From: an uncultured Bacilli bacterium
GTDB taxonomy: Bacteria; Bacillota_I; Bacilli_A; ML615J-28; CAG-313
NCBI GenBank assembly: GCA_947591495.1
Contig: CANQDG010000011.1
Span: forward strand, 1-52,423
Reading direction: 5' to 3'
Length of the DNA stretch: 52,423 bases
Shown here: in pieces, positions 1 to 11,777 of the stretch
Position numbering within the stretch: position 1 is the stretch's first letter
How the letters are laid out: the number at the start of each line of letters is the position of its first letter
Notes under the pieces: model-generated
The model's input: only the letters and a program-made list of their open reading frames with translations
Database searches by the model: none
What the model was told of the DNA's origin: nothing
Made by a program: the position numbers and the translations under genes

Positions 1-63
1 TATAGCTTCTCCTAGTGGAGCATTACAACATTTACATCTTCTTATTTCGATTGATTGATTCAT
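1..63 (-). CDS. Partial CDS, Cys-rich N-terminus (runs off the window)
   Basis: Only the first 21 codons are in the window. The product begins MNQSIEIRRCKCCNAPLGEA and has a C-x-C-C cluster that could start a zinc ribbon. The ATG is preceded by AGGAG, which overlaps the TAG stop of the AAA ATPase gene upstream, so it is very probably translated as the fifth gene of the SPFH/ESCRT-like operon. Zinc-ribbon proteins are common companions of SPFH and PspA genes, which fits, but the fragment is too short to assign a function. Confidence 0.6.
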   Translation of the reverse strand, partial: MNQSIEIRRCKCCNAPLGEAI

Positions 64-75
64 ATTATTAATCTC

Positions 76-1221
76 CTATATTAGTTCTTTTTGAAATTCT
101 TCTAATTTTCTTATATCACTTAATTGAACGCTTGAGTGAACTTTTTCTAATGCATAATCAATATCGTCTTGGGTAATATATTCATTATCTATACTACCTT
201 TTTCAATGCCTCTTTCAATTGGCATATTTTTACAAACTTCACATAATTCAACTATATCTGAACCATTATATCCTTCGGTTTTTTCTATTAGGACATTAAT
301 ATCGATATCATCAGCAAGCGGTACATTTTCTAAATTTTTTTCAAATAAAAATTTTCTAGCTTTTTCATCAGGTAATGGTATATATAATCTTTCATCAAAT
401 CTACCTGGTCTCATTAAAGCTGAATCAATATTCCAAGGAATATTAGTTGCCGCAATTACTAAGAGGTTATTATTATTATCATTGAATCCTTGTAGTTGTG
501 CTAATAGTTCTGGCACTATTCGATTAGTGGCAGATTCACTACCTGTTCGTTTAGTACCAATAGCTTCAAATTCATCAAAGAAAATAACGGCAGCTTTTTC
601 TTTTCGTGCGGTATCAAATAAGTTGCGAATATTTTTTTCTGATTCGCCAAACCATTTACTGACAACATCACTACATTTTACTTCAAAAAAGGTGGCACCG
701 ACTTCTGCAGCTATGGCTTTTGCCATCATGGTCTTTCCTGTACCTGGCAATCCATACATTAGAATACCTCCACCAACTTTTTTATTAAAACGTTCATAAT
801 AATCAGGATGTAGTTTAGGGTAAATAACTTTTCGTTTAACTGCTAATTTAACATCTTCCATGCCAGCAATATCATTAAATGTTACATTAGGAATTTGAGC
901 TGAAAACCACTCAGTTTCGGTAGAATCTTTGGTTTTTGTATCTTTCGTACGATTAATCATATTGCTTTTAGAATTAGAGTTATTAGACTCTATTTCGCTT
1001 TGTTCATCTAACTTTTCAACATATTCTAAAAGTTTTAAAACCCTTTCTTGTCTAACTTTTTTGAGTTCACCTGTTGAAAGATCGGCAAGTTTTTTTAAGG
1101 TTTCGGCCGCCATAAGCAATTGACGCCTTGCTTCTTTGAGGTTACCTGCGTCTTTGGCGGCAAGACCTTTTTCGTAATAGGTGTTAAAAGCTTTGTATAA
1201 TAAATCACCTTGATTGTTCAT
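76..1221 (-). CDS. Vps4-like AAA ATPase with N-terminal MIT domain
   Basis: 381 residues. Residues 1-75 form a three-helix segment with the MIT pattern (KDAGNLKEARRQLLMAAETL). A Ser/Asn/Thr-rich linker follows to about 105, then one AAA module: Walker A GLPGTGKT (157-164), pore loop SKWFGESE (188-195), Walker B VIFFDE (212-217), sensor-1 AATN (257-260), arginine fingers in RPGRFD (271-275). The K-W-F-G-E-S-E pore loop is the signature of the meiotic clade (Vps4, katanin, spastin). The C-terminus (about 360-380) resembles the Vps4 C-terminal helix; the Vps4 beta-domain insertion is absent. In eukaryotes and archaea such enzymes disassemble ESCRT-III polymers. The next gene upstream encodes a protein ending in a MIM1-like motif, the ligand class of MIT domains. 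AGGTG ribosome-binding site. The AAA call is certain; the Vps4-type role is inferred. Confidence 0.9.
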   Translation of the reverse strand: MNNQGDLLYKAFNTYYEKGLAAKDAGNLKEARRQLLMAAETLKKLADLSTGELKKVRQERVLKLLEYVEKLDEQSEIESNNSNSKSNMINRTKDTKTKDSTETEWFSAQIPNVTFNDIAGMEDVKLAVKRKVIYPKLHPDYYERFNKKVGGGILMYGLPGTGKTMMAKAIAAEVGATFFEVKCSDVVSKWFGESEKNIRNLFDTARKEKAAVIFFDEFEAIGTKRTGSESATNRIVPELLAQLQGFNDNNNNLLVIAATNIPWNIDSALMRPGRFDERLYIPLPDEKARKFLFEKNLENVPLADDIDINVLIEKTEGYNGSDIVELCEVCKNMPIERGIEKGSIDNEYITQDDIDYALEKVHSSVQLSDIRKLEEFQKELI

Positions 1222-1238
1222 AATATCACCTATTCAAT

Positions 1239-1811
1239 TTACTTAAGTTGATTCAATTTCTTTTCAATTAAATCGTCATATGATGATTCTTGATCTGCAT
1301 TTGGGCTAGAATTGATGATTGAATCGACTTCAGCATTAACATCATCTGGCAATTCTACATCAAAAGCATTAAAAGCACTTTCACTAAACTCCATCATTTC
1401 ATTTAACATATTTGATTGAGAGTTTACTTGGGCAAAAGCCTTTGTCATTTTTTTATTAACTTTAGAAGGATTAGTACCTTTACTAAATTTAAAAATATCA
1501 TCACATGCATCTTCGGTTAAGGATAAAAAATCTTTTGTTAATTCGGTAATATCACTCATTGAAGACATTACATCTAACTGAATAATCATTTGTTCAGCAC
1601 GATGTTTAGTTGATAATGCGCTAGCAAGACCAACTTTAGCAATCTTTAAAGAACTTTCGCTTTTCTTTTCTTTGGCAATTCGTGCTTTAGCTGAAAGATC
1701 ATTAATTTTAATGTCTACTTTTTCCACAATTTCATTTAATCTTTGAATTGTTTGATTAAATTTAACTTTACGATCGACTTCATTTACTTCATTATTTACT
1801 CGTTTCTTCAT
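1239..1811 (-). CDS. ESCRT-III-like (Snf7/CHMP1-type) helical protein with C-terminal MIM1-like motif
   Basis: 190 residues, almost entirely predicted helix, no signal or membrane segment. Basic start MKKRVNNEV, long amphipathic helices to about residue 155, an acidic flexible stretch (155-178), and a last helix ending exactly at the C-terminus: DDLIEKKLNQLK (179-190). That end fits the MIM1 pattern (D/E)xxLxxRLxxL(K/R) with conservative I for L and K for R. Size, helix order, acidic linker and terminal MIM copy the layout of CHMP1/Did2. Bacterial PspA/Vipp1 are established ESCRT-III superfamily members, but this protein is not an obvious PspA. It overlaps the upstream gene by 20 bp and sits 17 bp before the MIT-AAA gene. 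GAGGAAG ribosome-binding site. The alternative is an unrelated coiled coil. Confidence 0.65.
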   Translation of the reverse strand: MKKRVNNEVNEVDRKVKFNQTIQRLNEIVEKVDIKINDLSAKARIAKEKKSESSLKIAKVGLASALSTKHRAEQMIIQLDVMSSMSDITELTKDFLSLTEDACDDIFKFSKGTNPSKVNKKMTKAFAQVNSQSNMLNEMMEFSESAFNAFDVELPDDVNAEVDSIINSSPNADQESSYDDLIEKKLNQLK

Positions 1812-2802
1812 CTTTTACTTCCTCACTTTGATTTTTATTATTTATTTGATTTAATTGAGAATCCATCTTTGCTTGTTTTCGTCTTTCATGTTCAATTTGA
1901 GCAGCAGATGGTTCTTTGGCTTTTTGTTTACTTTGTAATTCTTTATTTTCTTCTTTATAAACATCTTTAATACGTTTAAATTCTTTATCTTCATTAATAC
2001 GTTGTTTTTTCAACTCAAGTGTTTCACTAACAACCTTTTTAAAAACATCATTAAATTTATCTTCAGCATATTGGTTGTTTCTAATAAACTTTTCAATATT
2101 TAAATCACCAAAACGATTTAAAAGTTCTTTATGATTAGTTATTTTACTTCTAACAGCGCGCTCTTGATCTTCATAAGTTGCTATTTTTTCATCTATTTCA
2201 TTGATTTCAGCCTCATATGATTCACCATTTTCTTCGTCAGCATCCCATTTTTCATGAATCAATTCTTTTAATTGGATTTCAGCTTGTTTTCGATAAAAAA
2301 TTTGTAATCGTTCCAATTCAAAAGTAATTAAAGTAGAATCTATTTCCCATTCTGTTTTAGCTGCTTCGGCTTTTCTTGCAACTTCTTTTGAATCTTCTTT
2401 GAAAATTGAACTATTTTGTTTAGTAAATAGATTGGCTCTTTCACAAAACATTCGATTAAGAATAGTCATAACTTTGTTAAACATATCCTTGTTAGCTTTT
2501 TGATATTGTTCGGCTCTTATACTATTTTCATCGTTTTTATGGCCTAAGATATTGCTTTGATGTAATGAACTTTCACGATATTTATCCATGATTAATTTGA
2601 TTTTTTCATCTAAAATGATAGCTTCAGGATTATCACAAGGCTCTAAAATAGCAATATTTCTTTTAATTTCTCTAAAATCATTTTTTAGTTCTTCTTCTTG
2701 TGTTCTTCTTATTAATTCATCAAAATAATTTTCTAAACTTTGTTTAGAGTCTTTAACTTGGATGGCAATTTTTTCATTATTTTTTTTCTTTTTAAATAAC
2801 AT
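1792..2802 (-). CDS. Helical/coiled-coil protein with basic N-terminus, ESCRT-like operon component
   Basis: 336 residues from the ATG with an AAGGAG site 7 nt upstream; a longer reading frame exists but lacks a site. The first nine residues MLFKKKKNN are hydrophobic then strongly basic, a pattern that can bind acidic membranes. The rest is charged helix, with strong heptad character around 170-310 and a Lys/Glu/Gln-rich tail. No cysteine cluster, catalytic motif or membrane span. The gene starts 11 bp after the SPFH gene and overlaps the ESCRT-III-like gene by 20 bp, so it is translationally coupled to that unit. I do not recognise the family. It may be a second polymer subunit or an adaptor, but that is inferred from position only. 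Confidence 0.75.
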   Translation of the reverse strand: MLFKKKKNNEKIAIQVKDSKQSLENYFDELIRRTQEEELKNDFREIKRNIAILEPCDNPEAIILDEKIKLIMDKYRESSLHQSNILGHKNDENSIRAEQYQKANKDMFNKVMTILNRMFCERANLFTKQNSSIFKEDSKEVARKAEAAKTEWEIDSTLITFELERLQIFYRKQAEIQLKELIHEKWDADEENGESYEAEINEIDEKIATYEDQERAVRSKITNHKELLNRFGDLNIEKFIRNNQYAEDKFNDVFKKVVSETLELKKQRINEDKEFKRIKDVYKEENKELQSKQKAKEPSAAQIEHERRKQAKMDSQLNQINNKNQSEEVKDEETSK

Positions 2803-2813
2803 CTTTTTTCTCC

Positions 2814-3695
2814 TTATCGATTTTGAGTACTTCCACAATTAGGGCAGAAGCGATCATCTAATTTTAATTGTTCCCCACAATTAGGACAGAATTTATAATT
2901 TTTTCTTTTTTCGCCTTCAGTGGTTGATGGTTGAGGTGCAACATTATTAACTGATTGGCCTTTCGCAAGTTCATTAATAACTTTTACTTCATTCATAGCT
3001 TGATGAGCTTTTTCATCAGAGCATTTACTATCAATTTTAGCTTCTTCTAAACTTATAGTTTTCTTATCAAGTAGTTCAAAGCCTTCAACGGTTATTTCTA
3101 AAACAGTTGTATCATCACATATTAATCCATATAGTTCACCAAATGAGTTCTCAAATTTATTGCTAATTAATTTAGCAACTTCACTGTTTGATGCTTGGAT
3201 TGCAAAACGATTCTTTTTTTGCATAGCTATTTCAGTTAATGCTTCAGCACAAATTGTACAAAGATATTTCTTAATTATTTCATTAAGTTTTTCTTCGGTA
3301 AAATCTTCTTTTTCATCTAGAGCATCATAAAGTCTTTGAGGGTTTTCAATTCTAACACGACTTATACCATAACATTTGGCTTGTAAAACTACGCCGTATT
3401 CTTCATCTTTATAATCAGGATTTTTAATTGTTCCCCATTTAAGTTCAATTACTTTGTTAGTATTAACCCCGTAAACTTCAAAATTTTTATTATCTTTTTT
3501 CGTGAATAGTTTTTCAAAAAAACCTTTTTGATTAATCACTTCGGTTTGACCAGGTAAGACTGTTTTATAAACAGCGCCATTGTGAATAAATAAAACATGA
3601 ACACCACCTTCAGCTGTTACCTTAGTATTAGCTTTAATTTCAAAATCTTCTTTCCAGATAAGTTTATCTTTGTTTGCTTTAACTCTTAATTCCAT
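2814..3695 (-). CDS. SPFH-domain protein with C-terminal zinc ribbon (YdjI/virion-core type)
   Basis: 293 residues. Residues about 25-225 match the bacterial SPFH 'virion core' family to which Bacillus YdjI belongs: FIHNGAVYKTVLPGQTEV, then VNTNKVIELKWGT, then the conserved YGVVLQAKCYG region. After a linker, a zinc ribbon at the C-terminus has Cys270, 273, 284 and 287 in two CPNCG knuckles. SPFH proteins form membrane-attached scaffolds, and YdjI recruits the ESCRT-III homologue PspA in Bacillus, so its place as first gene of this operon is telling. The ATG at 3695 has GGAGG at good spacing; the ATG 12 nt upstream lies inside that site and is rejected. A strong promoter lies 52-80 nt upstream. 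Confidence 0.88.
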   Translation of the reverse strand: MELRVKANKDKLIWKEDFEIKANTKVTAEGGVHVLFIHNGAVYKTVLPGQTEVINQKGFFEKLFTKKDNKNFEVYGVNTNKVIELKWGTIKNPDYKDEEYGVVLQAKCYGISRVRIENPQRLYDALDEKEDFTEEKLNEIIKKYLCTICAEALTEIAMQKKNRFAIQASNSEVAKLISNKFENSFGELYGLICDDTTVLEITVEGFELLDKKTISLEEAKIDSKCSDEKAHQAMNEVKVINELAKGQSVNNVAPQPSTTEGEKRKNYKFCPNCGEQLKLDDRFCPNCGSTQNR

Positions 3696-3746
3696 AATAA
3701 CCTCCATTTAATTTTAAAATAATTTAGAGCTTTTATATATAATTTT

Positions 3747-4255: not shown

Positions 4256-5497
4256 TTAAAATAAATCTTTTAAATCTTGTGTTAAATCTTTTAGATGACT
4301 AGCAATATAGTCATAGTGATGATTTTTTCTAAGTGTTATTTTTTGAACATTATTAATAGCATCATCAATTAATTCATCAAATGTTAATTTATTTTCTTCT
4401 TTGATGGTTAAATCAAGGCGCGGTTTTATTTGAGGATGTTTAGGAACAAAAACCGTACAACAATCCTCATATGGTCTAATCGAAATATCATAAGTTTTGA
4501 TTTTTTTAGCTAAATCAACAATATCTTGTTTATCATATGTAGCAAGCGGACGAATAACACACATATCTACAACACTTTCAATGGTATTCATACTCTCTAA
4601 AGTTTGGCTTGCCACTTGACCTACATTTTCACCATTAACGATAGCTAAAGCATTGATCCTTTTAGCTAGTTTTTCCGTGATCCGATACATCATTCTACGC
4701 ATAATAGTTATGCAATAATCTTCTTTGACATTTTCATAAATAGCTTGTTGAATTTTACTAAATGGAACAATGTATAAATTAAGATTTTGATATTCGGTAT
4801 AACTTGTTAAAACTTCTAATAAATCAATAACCTTTTGCACGGCCAAATCTGATGTATATGGAGGGGAAGAAAAATGAATAGCCTCAACTTGCATTCCCTT
4901 CTTAATTGCTAGATATCCAGCTACAACACTATCGATTCCCCCGGATATCATTAATCCAACTTTGCCAAGGCATCCCGCCGGAAATCCTCCAAGTCCCATA
5001 TATGTATTAGTAAAAAGAAAAGTTCCTTCTTGTCTAACATCTATTGATAAAACAAAATCAGGATGATACATATCAGCTTTTAGACCTAGAACATTTTTAA
5101 ATAAAAAACTACCTACTTCTTTGGTGATTTCAGGTGAAGTTTTGGGAAAGTTTTTATCACCACGATTTGTTTCAATTTTAAAGGTTTTAAAGCCTTCTTT
5201 GAGTTTTTGTTCAACTAATTCTTTCGCAAGTAGATTAATTTCATTTAAATCCGAAAGACATCTTGAAACAACACTAAATGAATAAATGCCAGGAATTTGT
5301 TTTAAAATTTCAATAATAGATGATGCTTCGGTATTATTTAAATTAATATAAAACCTTAAGCCTCTTGCCTCAAAAGTAAGGTTGGAAAAAGGCTCGCATG
5401 AACGTTTTATATGATTTTGAATACGATTAATAAATTGTTTGCGATTGCTTTTTTTTAAACTTAATTCGCCATATCTAACTAAAATATAATCTTCCAT
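4256..5497 (-). CDS. thiI: tRNA 4-thiouridine synthase ThiI
   Basis: 413 residues. N-terminal ferredoxin-like/THUMP region (about 1-170) for tRNA binding, then a PP-loop ATP pyrophosphatase domain with SGGIDSVVAGYLA (about 184-196) and the conserved NGENVGQVASQT block. It adenylates U8 of tRNA for thiolation and in many bacteria also supplies sulfur for thiazole synthesis. The C-terminal rhodanese domain of the E. coli enzyme is absent, as is usual in Bacillota, where a dedicated cysteine desulfurase delivers the sulfur; that gene lies directly upstream with one base between its stop and this ATG. AGGAAA site 8 nt before the start. Confidence 0.95.
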   Translation of the reverse strand: MEDYILVRYGELSLKKSNRKQFINRIQNHIKRSCEPFSNLTFEARGLRFYINLNNTEASSIIEILKQIPGIYSFSVVSRCLSDLNEINLLAKELVEQKLKEGFKTFKIETNRGDKNFPKTSPEITKEVGSFLFKNVLGLKADMYHPDFVLSIDVRQEGTFLFTNTYMGLGGFPAGCLGKVGLMISGGIDSVVAGYLAIKKGMQVEAIHFSSPPYTSDLAVQKVIDLLEVLTSYTEYQNLNLYIVPFSKIQQAIYENVKEDYCITIMRRMMYRITEKLAKRINALAIVNGENVGQVASQTLESMNTIESVVDMCVIRPLATYDKQDIVDLAKKIKTYDISIRPYEDCCTVFVPKHPQIKPRLDLTIKEENKLTFDELIDDAINNVQKITLRKNHHYDYIASHLKDLTQDLKDLF

Positions 5498-10366: not shown

Positions 10367-10414
10367 TTTTAAACTCCCTTTATTGATTGTCTCATTTTTT
10401 TAATTTTTTATTAA

Positions 10415-10753
10415 TTATCTTTTAAGCTTTTTTACACTTGCTTTCATAACTTCTTTTATTCCACAATGAGGGCAAACTAAAATTTTACTAAGATTTCCCG
10501 CATTGTAAGCTGTAACATCTTTAAAAAATGATATTTTAAATTGATGTTGACATTTAGGACAAGTATATATATATATCTTGCTTTTTAAAATGTGAATTGT
10601 AATATAACATGCCATAATTATGATAAATAAAGCAAGATATAGATAAGCGGTCCAATGATATTTAATTAAAAAGACAAAAGTGCTAACAAATATAATTATT
10701 AAGACAAGAAAGATAATTTTTAAAACTTGGATAATTTTTTCTTCTTTTGACAC
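10415..10753 (-). CDS. Small membrane protein with two-CxxC zinc ribbon
   Basis: 112 residues if started at GTG 10753, which has GAGGA 10 nt upstream; the longer ATG start at 10816 would overlap the TPR gene by 41 bp and has no ribosome-binding site. Two adjacent hydrophobic segments (about 9-30 and 35-55) are followed by a cytoplasmic zinc ribbon with TCPKCQHQF and VCPHCGIKE. No family recognised. It lies between a TPR protein gene and the zinc importer; a zinc-related role is possible but not shown. Confidence 0.7.
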   Translation of the reverse strand: MSKEEKIIQVLKIIFLVLIIIFVSTFVFLIKYHWTAYLYLALFIIIMACYITIHILKSKIYIYTCPKCQHQFKISFFKDVTAYNAGNLSKILVCPHCGIKEVMKASVKKLKR

Positions 10754-10775
10754 GTTTTTATATTCCTCAAATATT

Positions 10776-11777
10776 TTATTTTGTTTTAAGTAAGGCTTGA
10801 TGATAACGATCATCATCAGTTAATTCATAAGCTATCGTTAAAAGATAGACTAGGGTATCTTGATCATTTTTTTCTTTGCTATAGGCAATAAATTCTTCTA
10901 TCGCCTTTATGACGATGGTTGAGACGCCATATTGAAGATGATTTTTAGCAAAAATGTTAGTAATATCATCTGGTTTAGTAAGATTTGGTCGACCAATAAT
11001 TTGAGTGATTTCTTTAACTTTTTGTTGATTATTGGGATTTTCTTTAAAATAATCACTTGTTACATATGATACTAAAGCCATTTCATAATTGTTTTTAGCC
11101 AAATAATAACGACCAAAAAATTGATAAGCATAAGCAAGTTGTTCTTTAGTATAAGCATAACGTAGGCTATCTTGCATGATCATAAAAGCTTTTTCAATTT
11201 GGTGATTTTTTTCATATAAAAGGGCTAAATTTTCCATAACATATTGGCATCTAGGGTTATAATTAAGCGCTTCTTCTAATAAGCTAATAGCTTTATTAAA
11301 GTCTTGTTCTTCTTCATAAAGATTGGCAAGTTGATATATATAATATGTAATAGGTTCGGGATATCTTCTAATCTTTAATGATTTAGCTTTTTGAACGTTT
11401 TCGCAAAAAATAAAATATTCAATCATTTGATCAAAATCATAATAGTTTTGATCTTTGATGAAAGTAGCTTTACGAAAAGGATCAATTAATTCTTCTAAAA
11501 TTGTTTTGGCTTTCGTAATTTCTTTTTGTTCAATTAAAGATAAGACTTGTTCATATTTAACTCGCCTTTCATCTAAAACCGCATGGGTTTTTAAATCAAG
11601 GCGTTGTTTTATGGCTGGATCTAAATATTGAAATAGCATATTAGCAATAGCATAAGTAACTTCATCATTTTTCATTTGACGATATATCGCAAGTTCTGTT
11701 TGAAGATATATCACATCAGTTTCTTTAGCTCCTGTTAAATTGTGCTTAATTTGCTCAATAATTTCATCATTTTTCAT
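10776..11777 (-). CDS. TPR-repeat protein
   Basis: 333 residues, soluble, no signal peptide. Helix-turn-helix repeats with the TPR pattern are plainest at about 145-235: YYIYQLANLYEEEQDFNKAI, then ENLALLYEKNHQIEKAF, then YQFFGRYYLAKNNYEMAL. Such repeats bind peptides or assemble complexes. The Met start directly follows the HAD gene with 2 bp between. The ribosome-binding site is weak, so translation is probably coupled. The remaining sequence has no recognisable catalytic domain, and I cannot name a partner. Confidence 0.8.
   Translation of the reverse strand: MKNDEIIEQIKHNLTGAKETDVIYLQTELAIYRQMKNDEVTYAIANMLFQYLDPAIKQRLDLKTHAVLDERRVKYEQVLSLIEQKEITKAKTILEELIDPFRKATFIKDQNYYDFDQMIEYFIFCENVQKAKSLKIRRYPEPITYYIYQLANLYEEEQDFNKAISLLEEALNYNPRCQYVMENLALLYEKNHQIEKAFMIMQDSLRYAYTKEQLAYAYQFFGRYYLAKNNYEMALVSYVTSDYFKENPNNQQKVKEITQIIGRPNLTKPDDITNIFAKNHLQYGVSTIVIKAIEEFIAYSKEKNDQDTLVYLLTIAYELTDDDRYHQALLKTK

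Follow-up and report, generated by a model that had tools for sequence, protein, structure and literature searches.

The eukaryotic ESCRT-III proteins CHMP1-3 carry a MIM1 consensus in which a C-terminal helix near the stop codon has hydrophobic residues at positions 4, 8, and 11. The MIT domain of VPS4 binds the tails of late-acting ESCRT-III proteins with affinities from nanomolar to mid-micromolar, according to the available portions of one account (PMC9477494), and Leu-to-Ile changes are also mentioned in the excerpted account of MIM1 in Asgard archaea (PMC7240154). According to the part of a survey at hand, ESCRT-III with Vps4 occurs in archaea and eukaryotes only (PMC10936438). Transfers of Vps4 to bacteria are reported, in the sections of another study that treat them, with snf7 displaced by an unrelated gene (PMC11237479), while a further source mentions bacterial ESCRT-III-like proteins and, in its available passages, names no bacterial Vps4 (PMC7618577). 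A bacterial ESCRT-III/Vps4 pair was not found in the published literature searched, which held few subscription papers and had preprints outside its scope.

Here, we analyzed a window (the whole stretch of DNA under study, 52,423 nucleotides from an uncultured, gut-type Bacilli bacterium) in which an ESCRT-III-like gene directly precedes a Vps4-like ATPase gene, in the following arrangement:

1-63, reverse strand: start of a zinc-ribbon-like gene (MNQSIEIRRCKCCNAPLGEAI...), downstream of P0002 and cut by the contig end.
76-1221, reverse strand: P0002, a predicted Vps4-like ATPase of 381 aa (AAA 2e-43; CdvC model spanning residues 13-377) with MIT, a single AAA, and a partial Vps4_C domain.
1006-1221, reverse strand: MIT domain of P0002 (about residues 1-72), assigned from the family sequence and the fold of a homologous MIT.
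1239-1811, reverse strand: P0001, the ESCRT-III-like gene, 190 aa, with profile matches to CdvB/Snf7 and a five-helix ESCRT-III-like model.
1242-1277, reverse strand: MIM1-like C-terminal helix DDLIEKKLNQLK, P0001 residues 179-190, with D179, I182, L186, and L189 conserved.
1311-1340, reverse strand: equivalent of helix alpha-5, P0001 residues 158-167, well conserved, with a short linker to the tail.
1792-2802, reverse strand: P0003, a helical protein of about 336 aa, whose residues 1-72 correspond to an operon family of ~110 aa (profile E = 1.5e-7).
2814-3707, reverse strand: P0004, an SPFH protein (Band_7_1, 1.9e-14) of 297 aa with a C-terminal zinc ribbon (Zn_Ribbon_1, 7.5e-9).

The P0002 gene begins 17 bases past the P0001 stop codon, and the 3' end of the P0003 gene overlaps the start of the P0001 gene by 20 bases. 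The best explanation of this arrangement, and one that we consider probable, is a bacterial ESCRT-III/Vps4 system whose conserved C-terminal MIM1-like helix would recruit Vps4.

Compared on its own with the PDB and Pfam, P0001 has no detectable sequence similarity to ESCRT-III, and profiles were needed because the single-protein PDB search came back empty. With a 19-member profile against 177,635 PDB sequences, archaeal CdvB2 (E = 0.035) and CdvB (E = 0.099) ranked first, both weakly. A Pfam scan of the 19 members gave the most matches to Snf7 among the matches listed (7/19, best E = 0.0079), and the 25 listed, out of 38 Pfam families with matches to members of the family, did not include PspA_IM30. 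Genome-wide, the best match of the Snf7 profile was the operon gene in G377 (E = 2.7e-5) and in G269 (E = 1.1e-3); none of the 17 bacterial genomes rose above the Pfam cut-off, a threshold that the control S. acidocaldarius, a genome with real ESCRT-III, also failed to reach, and nothing was found by this profile in 7 of the 17, the window's own genome included. Alignment of the family by hhalign with 17 archaeal ESCRT-III sequences gave a modest probability of 25.5 (E = 7.5e-4, score 31.6), with reversed controls at E = 0.27 and 0.36 and with 50 and 40 column shuffles scoring at most 13.6 and 14.9. Part of that signal may be shared helical character, since a second operon family of ~200 residues also scores 23-24 against the P0001 family.

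These comparisons were complemented by an AlphaFold model of P0001 from 11 sequences (mean pLDDT 76.7, pTM 0.58), in which helices at residues 2-48, 52-109, 116-149, 158-167, and 175-189 follow the order of ESCRT-III, with the layout of an alpha1-alpha2/3 hairpin, alpha4, alpha5, linker, and tail helix. Foldseek placed three CdvB chains at the top, all with weak E-values (0.13-0.17). VIA-align superposed the model in register on Asgard ESCRT-IIIB (Z = 9.7, 2.2 A over 114 residues) and on Snf7 (Z = 8.8, 1.8 A over 102 residues), with similar scores and mostly worse rmsd for unrelated helical proteins and with Z under 13 being weak for helical folds. No single test is decisive; independent ones agree on homology to archaeal ESCRT-III, and sequence profiles and the predicted model together mark P0001 as a probable divergent ESCRT-III. 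Alternatively, P0001 might belong to PspA/Vipp1, the known bacterial branch of ESCRT-III, with its AAA neighbor present by chance or as a lineage-specific feature. Such an assignment would accord with bacterial PspA being encoded alongside SPFH proteins, as described in the available portions of two accounts (PMC10936438 and PMC11237479), and with Vipp1 appearing at Foldseek rank 35 for the P0001 model, but it is opposed by the lead of Snf7 in the family's Pfam matches (among those listed) and of CdvB in the PDB profile search, and by an AAA neighbor, Vps4 by tree, that is kept across Bacillota and a Planctomycete. We give this alternative little credence.

The ATPase gene had been described as encoding a MIT-AAA protein, and the AAA part of this description holds for P0002 as such; Pfam calls no MIT on P0002 itself, whose N-terminal domain is small and helical, and the MIT part is borne out at the level of the family, by sequence and by fold. 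Pfam MIT matches 5 of 18 ATPase family members (best E = 3.6e-5), and a PDB profile search recovers the MIT domains of Calpain-7 (3.4e-5) and CdvC (5.5e-4), which are outscored by designed TPR repeats that gain from repetition over 25 residues. The MIT of the L016 homolog was modeled as three helices (pLDDT about 91-97), and its best structural match is the Sulfolobus CdvC MIT in complex with ESCRT-III (2w2u), with the MITs of VPS4, MITD1, Calpain-7, and LIP5 among the other matches. On P0002 residues 339-379, Vps4_C (PF09336) scores 19.6 bits against a cut-off of 21.3. Profile scores are ambiguous, with CDC48 slightly over CdvC for P0002 and CdvC first for L006. An AAA-only tree was built after dropping ten of the 63 rows (long-branched, duplicate, partial, or outgroup); in it, the 18 bacterial sequences group together (99/95), and a branch supported at 100/98 puts bacterial and archaeal Vps4 apart from Cdc48 D1/D2; a tree of all 63 rows with an FtsH outgroup returned the same Vps4 grouping (SH-aLRT 98). 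P0002 is homologous to archaeal Vps4, and by its tree position and the modeled fold of a homologous MIT it is a predicted bacterial Vps4 that groups with archaeal Vps4, not with Cdc48. Separately, in a single protein at L022 5765-7870, a MIT-like domain at the N-terminus is combined with two AAA domains, of which one precedes an AAA_lid_6.

The original prediction concerned the tail of P0001, where an exact MIM1-like motif was placed at 1239-1275, at the very C-terminus and behind an acidic linker. The location was correct, with an upstream end two bases short: the motif codons occupy 1242-1277 and are immediately followed by the stop codon at 1239-1241, so that the translation of 1239-1811(-) ends in QESSYDDLIEKKLNQLK and the stop. 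All six constrained MIM1 positions are fitted by DDLIEKKLNQLK, allowing I/L and K/R exchange, and both basic positions (7 and 12) are K in P0001. The residues immediately preceding it, NADQESSY, are mildly acidic. By scanning 801 proteins with a strict form of the motif, [DE]xx[LI]xx[RK][LI]xx[LI][KR], matches were found at 8 of 264,481 12-mer starts (3.0e-5); within the last 30 residues, the pattern occurred in none of 758 proteins from the other loci (L014-L093) and in 1 of 43 window ORFs, namely P0001. This rarity argues that the match is real and unexpected by chance, as had been claimed. It also bears on the idea that the tail matches by accident and that P0001 is an unrelated helical protein, for which the lack of detectable ESCRT-III similarity in P0001 alone might be cited; with the tail core conserved in homologs, and with independent profile evidence in which the real comparison scores roughly twice its reversed and shuffled controls or more, we find this idea hardly credible.

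The conservation of the tail was examined in 22 ESCRT-III-like genes from operons with a MIT-AAA gene, by scoring the best 12-residue tail window of each out of 9; these rows contain near relatives and correspond to 12 effective sequences at 60% identity. L009 and L025 were excluded because no MIT-AAA gene directly follows, and L015 because no ESCRT-III gene was found there by profile, its MIT-AAA gene being present (a DO-GTPase2 gene at L015 1105-2454 lies upstream of the latter). In the L017 row, a deaminase-like gene, labeled by eye, stands between the ESCRT-III and AAA genes. It had been proposed that homologs with the AAA neighbor would also keep the motif, and this holds for the three core hydrophobics (LxxxLxxL), which are kept in 19 of 22; the exact six-position pattern is private to the window (1/22, P0001). 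When the last 32 residues were shuffled over 1,000 rounds, a mean of 5.1 and a maximum of 11 rows showed the three hydrophobics. A tail score of at least 7 was reached by 18/22 homologs versus 19/112 other proteins of the same loci, a score of at least 8 by 5/22 versus 2/112, and a score of 9 by the window's P0001 versus 0/112. The third hydrophobic is broken in L023 and L123, and the motif lies further from the stop in L007, L010/L011, and L099. L007 was entered at its top-scoring window, with two of the three hydrophobics, which gives the count of 19; an alternative register, SDDLDNILQTLD, has all three.

These observations were further refined with an alignment not anchored on the motif. 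The hydrophobic fractions of columns 182, 186, and 189 were 0.92, 1.00, and 0.92, with the remaining well-filled columns of the last 18 (173-190) at or below 0.28, and relative entropy among the well-filled columns of this stretch was highest at 186, 179, 189, and 182. Position 1 of the motif is D, S, N, T, or G across the family, most commonly D. Most rows have E at position 7 (K185 in the window), with K in three, and about half of the rows carry K or R at position 12. Neither position is conserved as basic; four of the six motif positions (D179, I182, L186, and L189) are therefore conserved, not all six. Whether tail position 7 pairs by charge with MIT residues was inspected by eye and set aside, as independent sequences with K are too few. 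Overall, the original interpretation is partly supported, in that its core was right and its detail overstated.

The spacing of three hydrophobics is what any amphipathic helix shows, and this counts against the MIM1 reading: a bare i, i+4, i+7 hydrophobic pattern occurs somewhere in the last 32 residues of 50/112 other same-locus proteins. The tail helix could then be conserved for membrane insertion or for an autoinhibitory fold-back on the ESCRT-III core, with the AAA protein recruited elsewhere on the polymer, and the conserved core would be an amphipathic pattern of three hydrophobics. The monomer model gives the predicted tail helix (175-189) little confidence (block pLDDT 49-65), which this alternative would accommodate, as it would the use of MIM2 by archaeal CdvB, which lacks MIM1 in the available part of one account (PMC7240154). 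Against it, the core tracks the MIT-AAA neighbor: L009 and L025, which have no direct MIT-AAA partner, end in GIKNKF and TNKNRF, unlike the core. Moreover, the Lokiarchaeal ESCRT-III L140 ends in AELEKELNRLKSDE, with the same LxxELxxLK form and E at position 7. We judge this alternative unlikely. The L016 tail and MIT, modeled as one chain joined by their native linker (tail helix pLDDT ~80, linker 46-53, pTM 0.64), gave values compatible with packing of the tail on the MIT.

Under the preferred ESCRT-III/Vps4 reading, the SPFH-zinc-ribbon protein P0004, a candidate membrane platform, would mark or organize a membrane patch on which P0001 would polymerize. The free C-terminal helix DDLIEKKLNQLK, behind its linker, would dock on the P0002 MIT in a MIM1-like manner through I182, L186, and L189, and the P0002 AAA ring would extract P0001 subunits, thereby remodeling or clearing the polymer. 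From homology and motif conservation we infer MIT binding and the groove that it would use, as well as P0001 polymerization, its membrane target, and disassembly.

The gene order SPFH-zinc ribbon, ~110 aa, ~200 aa, ESCRT-III-like, and MIT-AAA recurs in L014, L016, L018, L022, and L064 from Clostridia-type MAGs (with one additional small gene in L018 and L064). Slightly altered versions occur in L006, L007, L008, L017, L019, and L099, and the Planctomycetota MAG L020 has a shortened one. Relatives often have a zinc-ribbon/TIR gene at the place of the window's gene at 1-63. Within the window's class, a P0001 search at E = 1e-3 matched 8/395 genomes, one falsely; the G192 match (L012) falls inside a DnaG primase gene and was dropped. 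An AAA alignment search at 1e-60 matched 22/395 genomes, nine of which extend into the MIT part (query start at or below 10), and an ESCRT-III alignment search matched 4/391 genomes in the class of the Clostridia MAG G396. No P0001 match was present in the window's four congeneric genomes, and tblastn at 1e-3 found none among 72,556 plasmids and 50,697 phages. The distribution is sporadic, across Bacillota and one Planctomycete.

Some of these operons likely encode a second ESCRT-III-like protein, as suggested by an hhalign comparison of the ~200-residue upstream family (14 sequences) with archaeal ESCRT-III (probability 81, E = 1.2e-5). When L006 and L008 were left out, the probability was 16 (E = 1.6e-3), with reversed controls at E = 0.12-0.18. 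A PDB search with this family gave CHMP2A only, weakly (E = 1.4), its Pfam search gave no Snf7, and the archaeal ESCRT-III HMM also picks the ~110-residue operon proteins; the window's P0003 has no significant match to the ~200-residue family and matches the ~110-residue family only. The call of a second ESCRT-III-like protein is therefore limited to the Clostridia-type operons, and in the window it is unproven. Further arrangements were noted at individual loci. L172 (G377) has ESCRT-III-like genes on both sides of the MIT-AAA gene (2853-3461 and 4723-5277). At L171 7171-9042, an apparent ESCRT-III-FtsK fusion matches the ESCRT-III-like profile at its N-terminus (as in L009/L013) and FtsK/SpoIIIE at its C-terminus (1.2e-43). 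At L025 6009-7819, an ESCRT-III-like domain apparently runs into an AAA domain, in a frame interrupted at a masked stretch.

The surroundings of the operons vary as well. TIR-domain proteins (TIR_2 above cut-off) adjoin or neighbor the operons at L181 2330-5602 (L099/L181), L023 1805-3394, L174 902-3685, L171 9058-13854, L178 4516-7524, and L179 8230-11469, and BrxL (BREX Lon-like) genes above the NCBIfam cut-off lie downstream of the MIT-AAA gene at L016 4261-5715 and L178 7528-8952. TIR and BrxL are kinds of gene found in anti-phage systems. Genes for trypsin-like proteases accompany the operons of L016, L022, and L182; the operon at L176 1764-12086 (G048) has PP2C, protein kinase, and vWA genes on its flanks, and that of the Planctomycete L183 has a kinase-zinc ribbon gene nearby (10371-11504). 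The archaeal ESCRT survey, in its available portion, lists kinases, phosphatases, and SPFH proteins too (PMC10936438). The TIR, BrxL, and kinase surroundings give a hint of the role of the operon.

More tentatively, these genes may form a true, old bacterial branch of ESCRT-III/Vps4 with MIT-MIM1-type recruitment, set inside a membrane-stress or anti-phage response with host-exchanged effectors (TIR, BrxL, trypsin-like protease, and kinase/phosphatase/vWA), with a second ESCRT-III-like protein in some operons and one ESCRT-III-FtsK/SpoIIIE fusion; we put this forward as a possibility about which we are rather doubtful. If such an old branch were true, MIT-MIM1 coupling would not be an invention of Asgard archaea and eukaryotes. 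Should the narrower ESCRT-III/Vps4 reading be true, the existence of such a pair in bacteria, complete with a matching docking helix, would revise views of where and when this machine arose, and it would provide a small bacterial system for rebuilding ESCRT-III recruitment and disassembly.

By comparing the locus with described systems, likenesses and differences were found for each. IetAS resembles it in that PADLOC IetA models match the AAA domain (2.6e-40) and a serine protease gene lies near some operons here, and differs in that the match is limited to the AAA domain and linker, with CdvC and CDC48 models scoring far higher. We know of no ESCRT-III partner for IetA. PspA/Vipp1 with an SPFH partner, of the B. 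subtilis YdjI type, likewise joins a bacterial member of the ESCRT-III superfamily with an SPFH-zinc-ribbon protein encoded alongside it (PMC10936438 and PMC11237479, in the parts at hand), whereas a MIT-Vps4 partner does not feature in those parts and the P0001 family is closer to Snf7/CdvB. In CHMP1-3 (Vps2/24/46), as in P0001, alpha-5 and a linker lead to a C-terminal helix that has hydrophobics at 4, 8, and 11 and lies near the stop, but the basic MIM1 position 7 is K in three of the sequences here and E in most. The archaeal Cdv/ESCRT machinery (CdvB with CdvC, and Asgard ESCRT-III with Vps4) differs in host, and the bacterial sequences are too distant from Snf7 and CdvC for curated cut-offs; their operons neighbor SPFH and TIR, BrxL, protease, or kinase/phosphatase genes, and CdvB is described as without MIM1 in the part of that account at hand (PMC7240154). 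The likeness to this archaeal machinery lies in an ESCRT-III-like gene that adjoins a MIT-AAA gene, in a bacterial AAA domain that groups with archaeal Vps4, in a MIT fold nearest to that of CdvC, and in a Lokiarchaeal ESCRT-III tail of the same form as that of the P0001 family.
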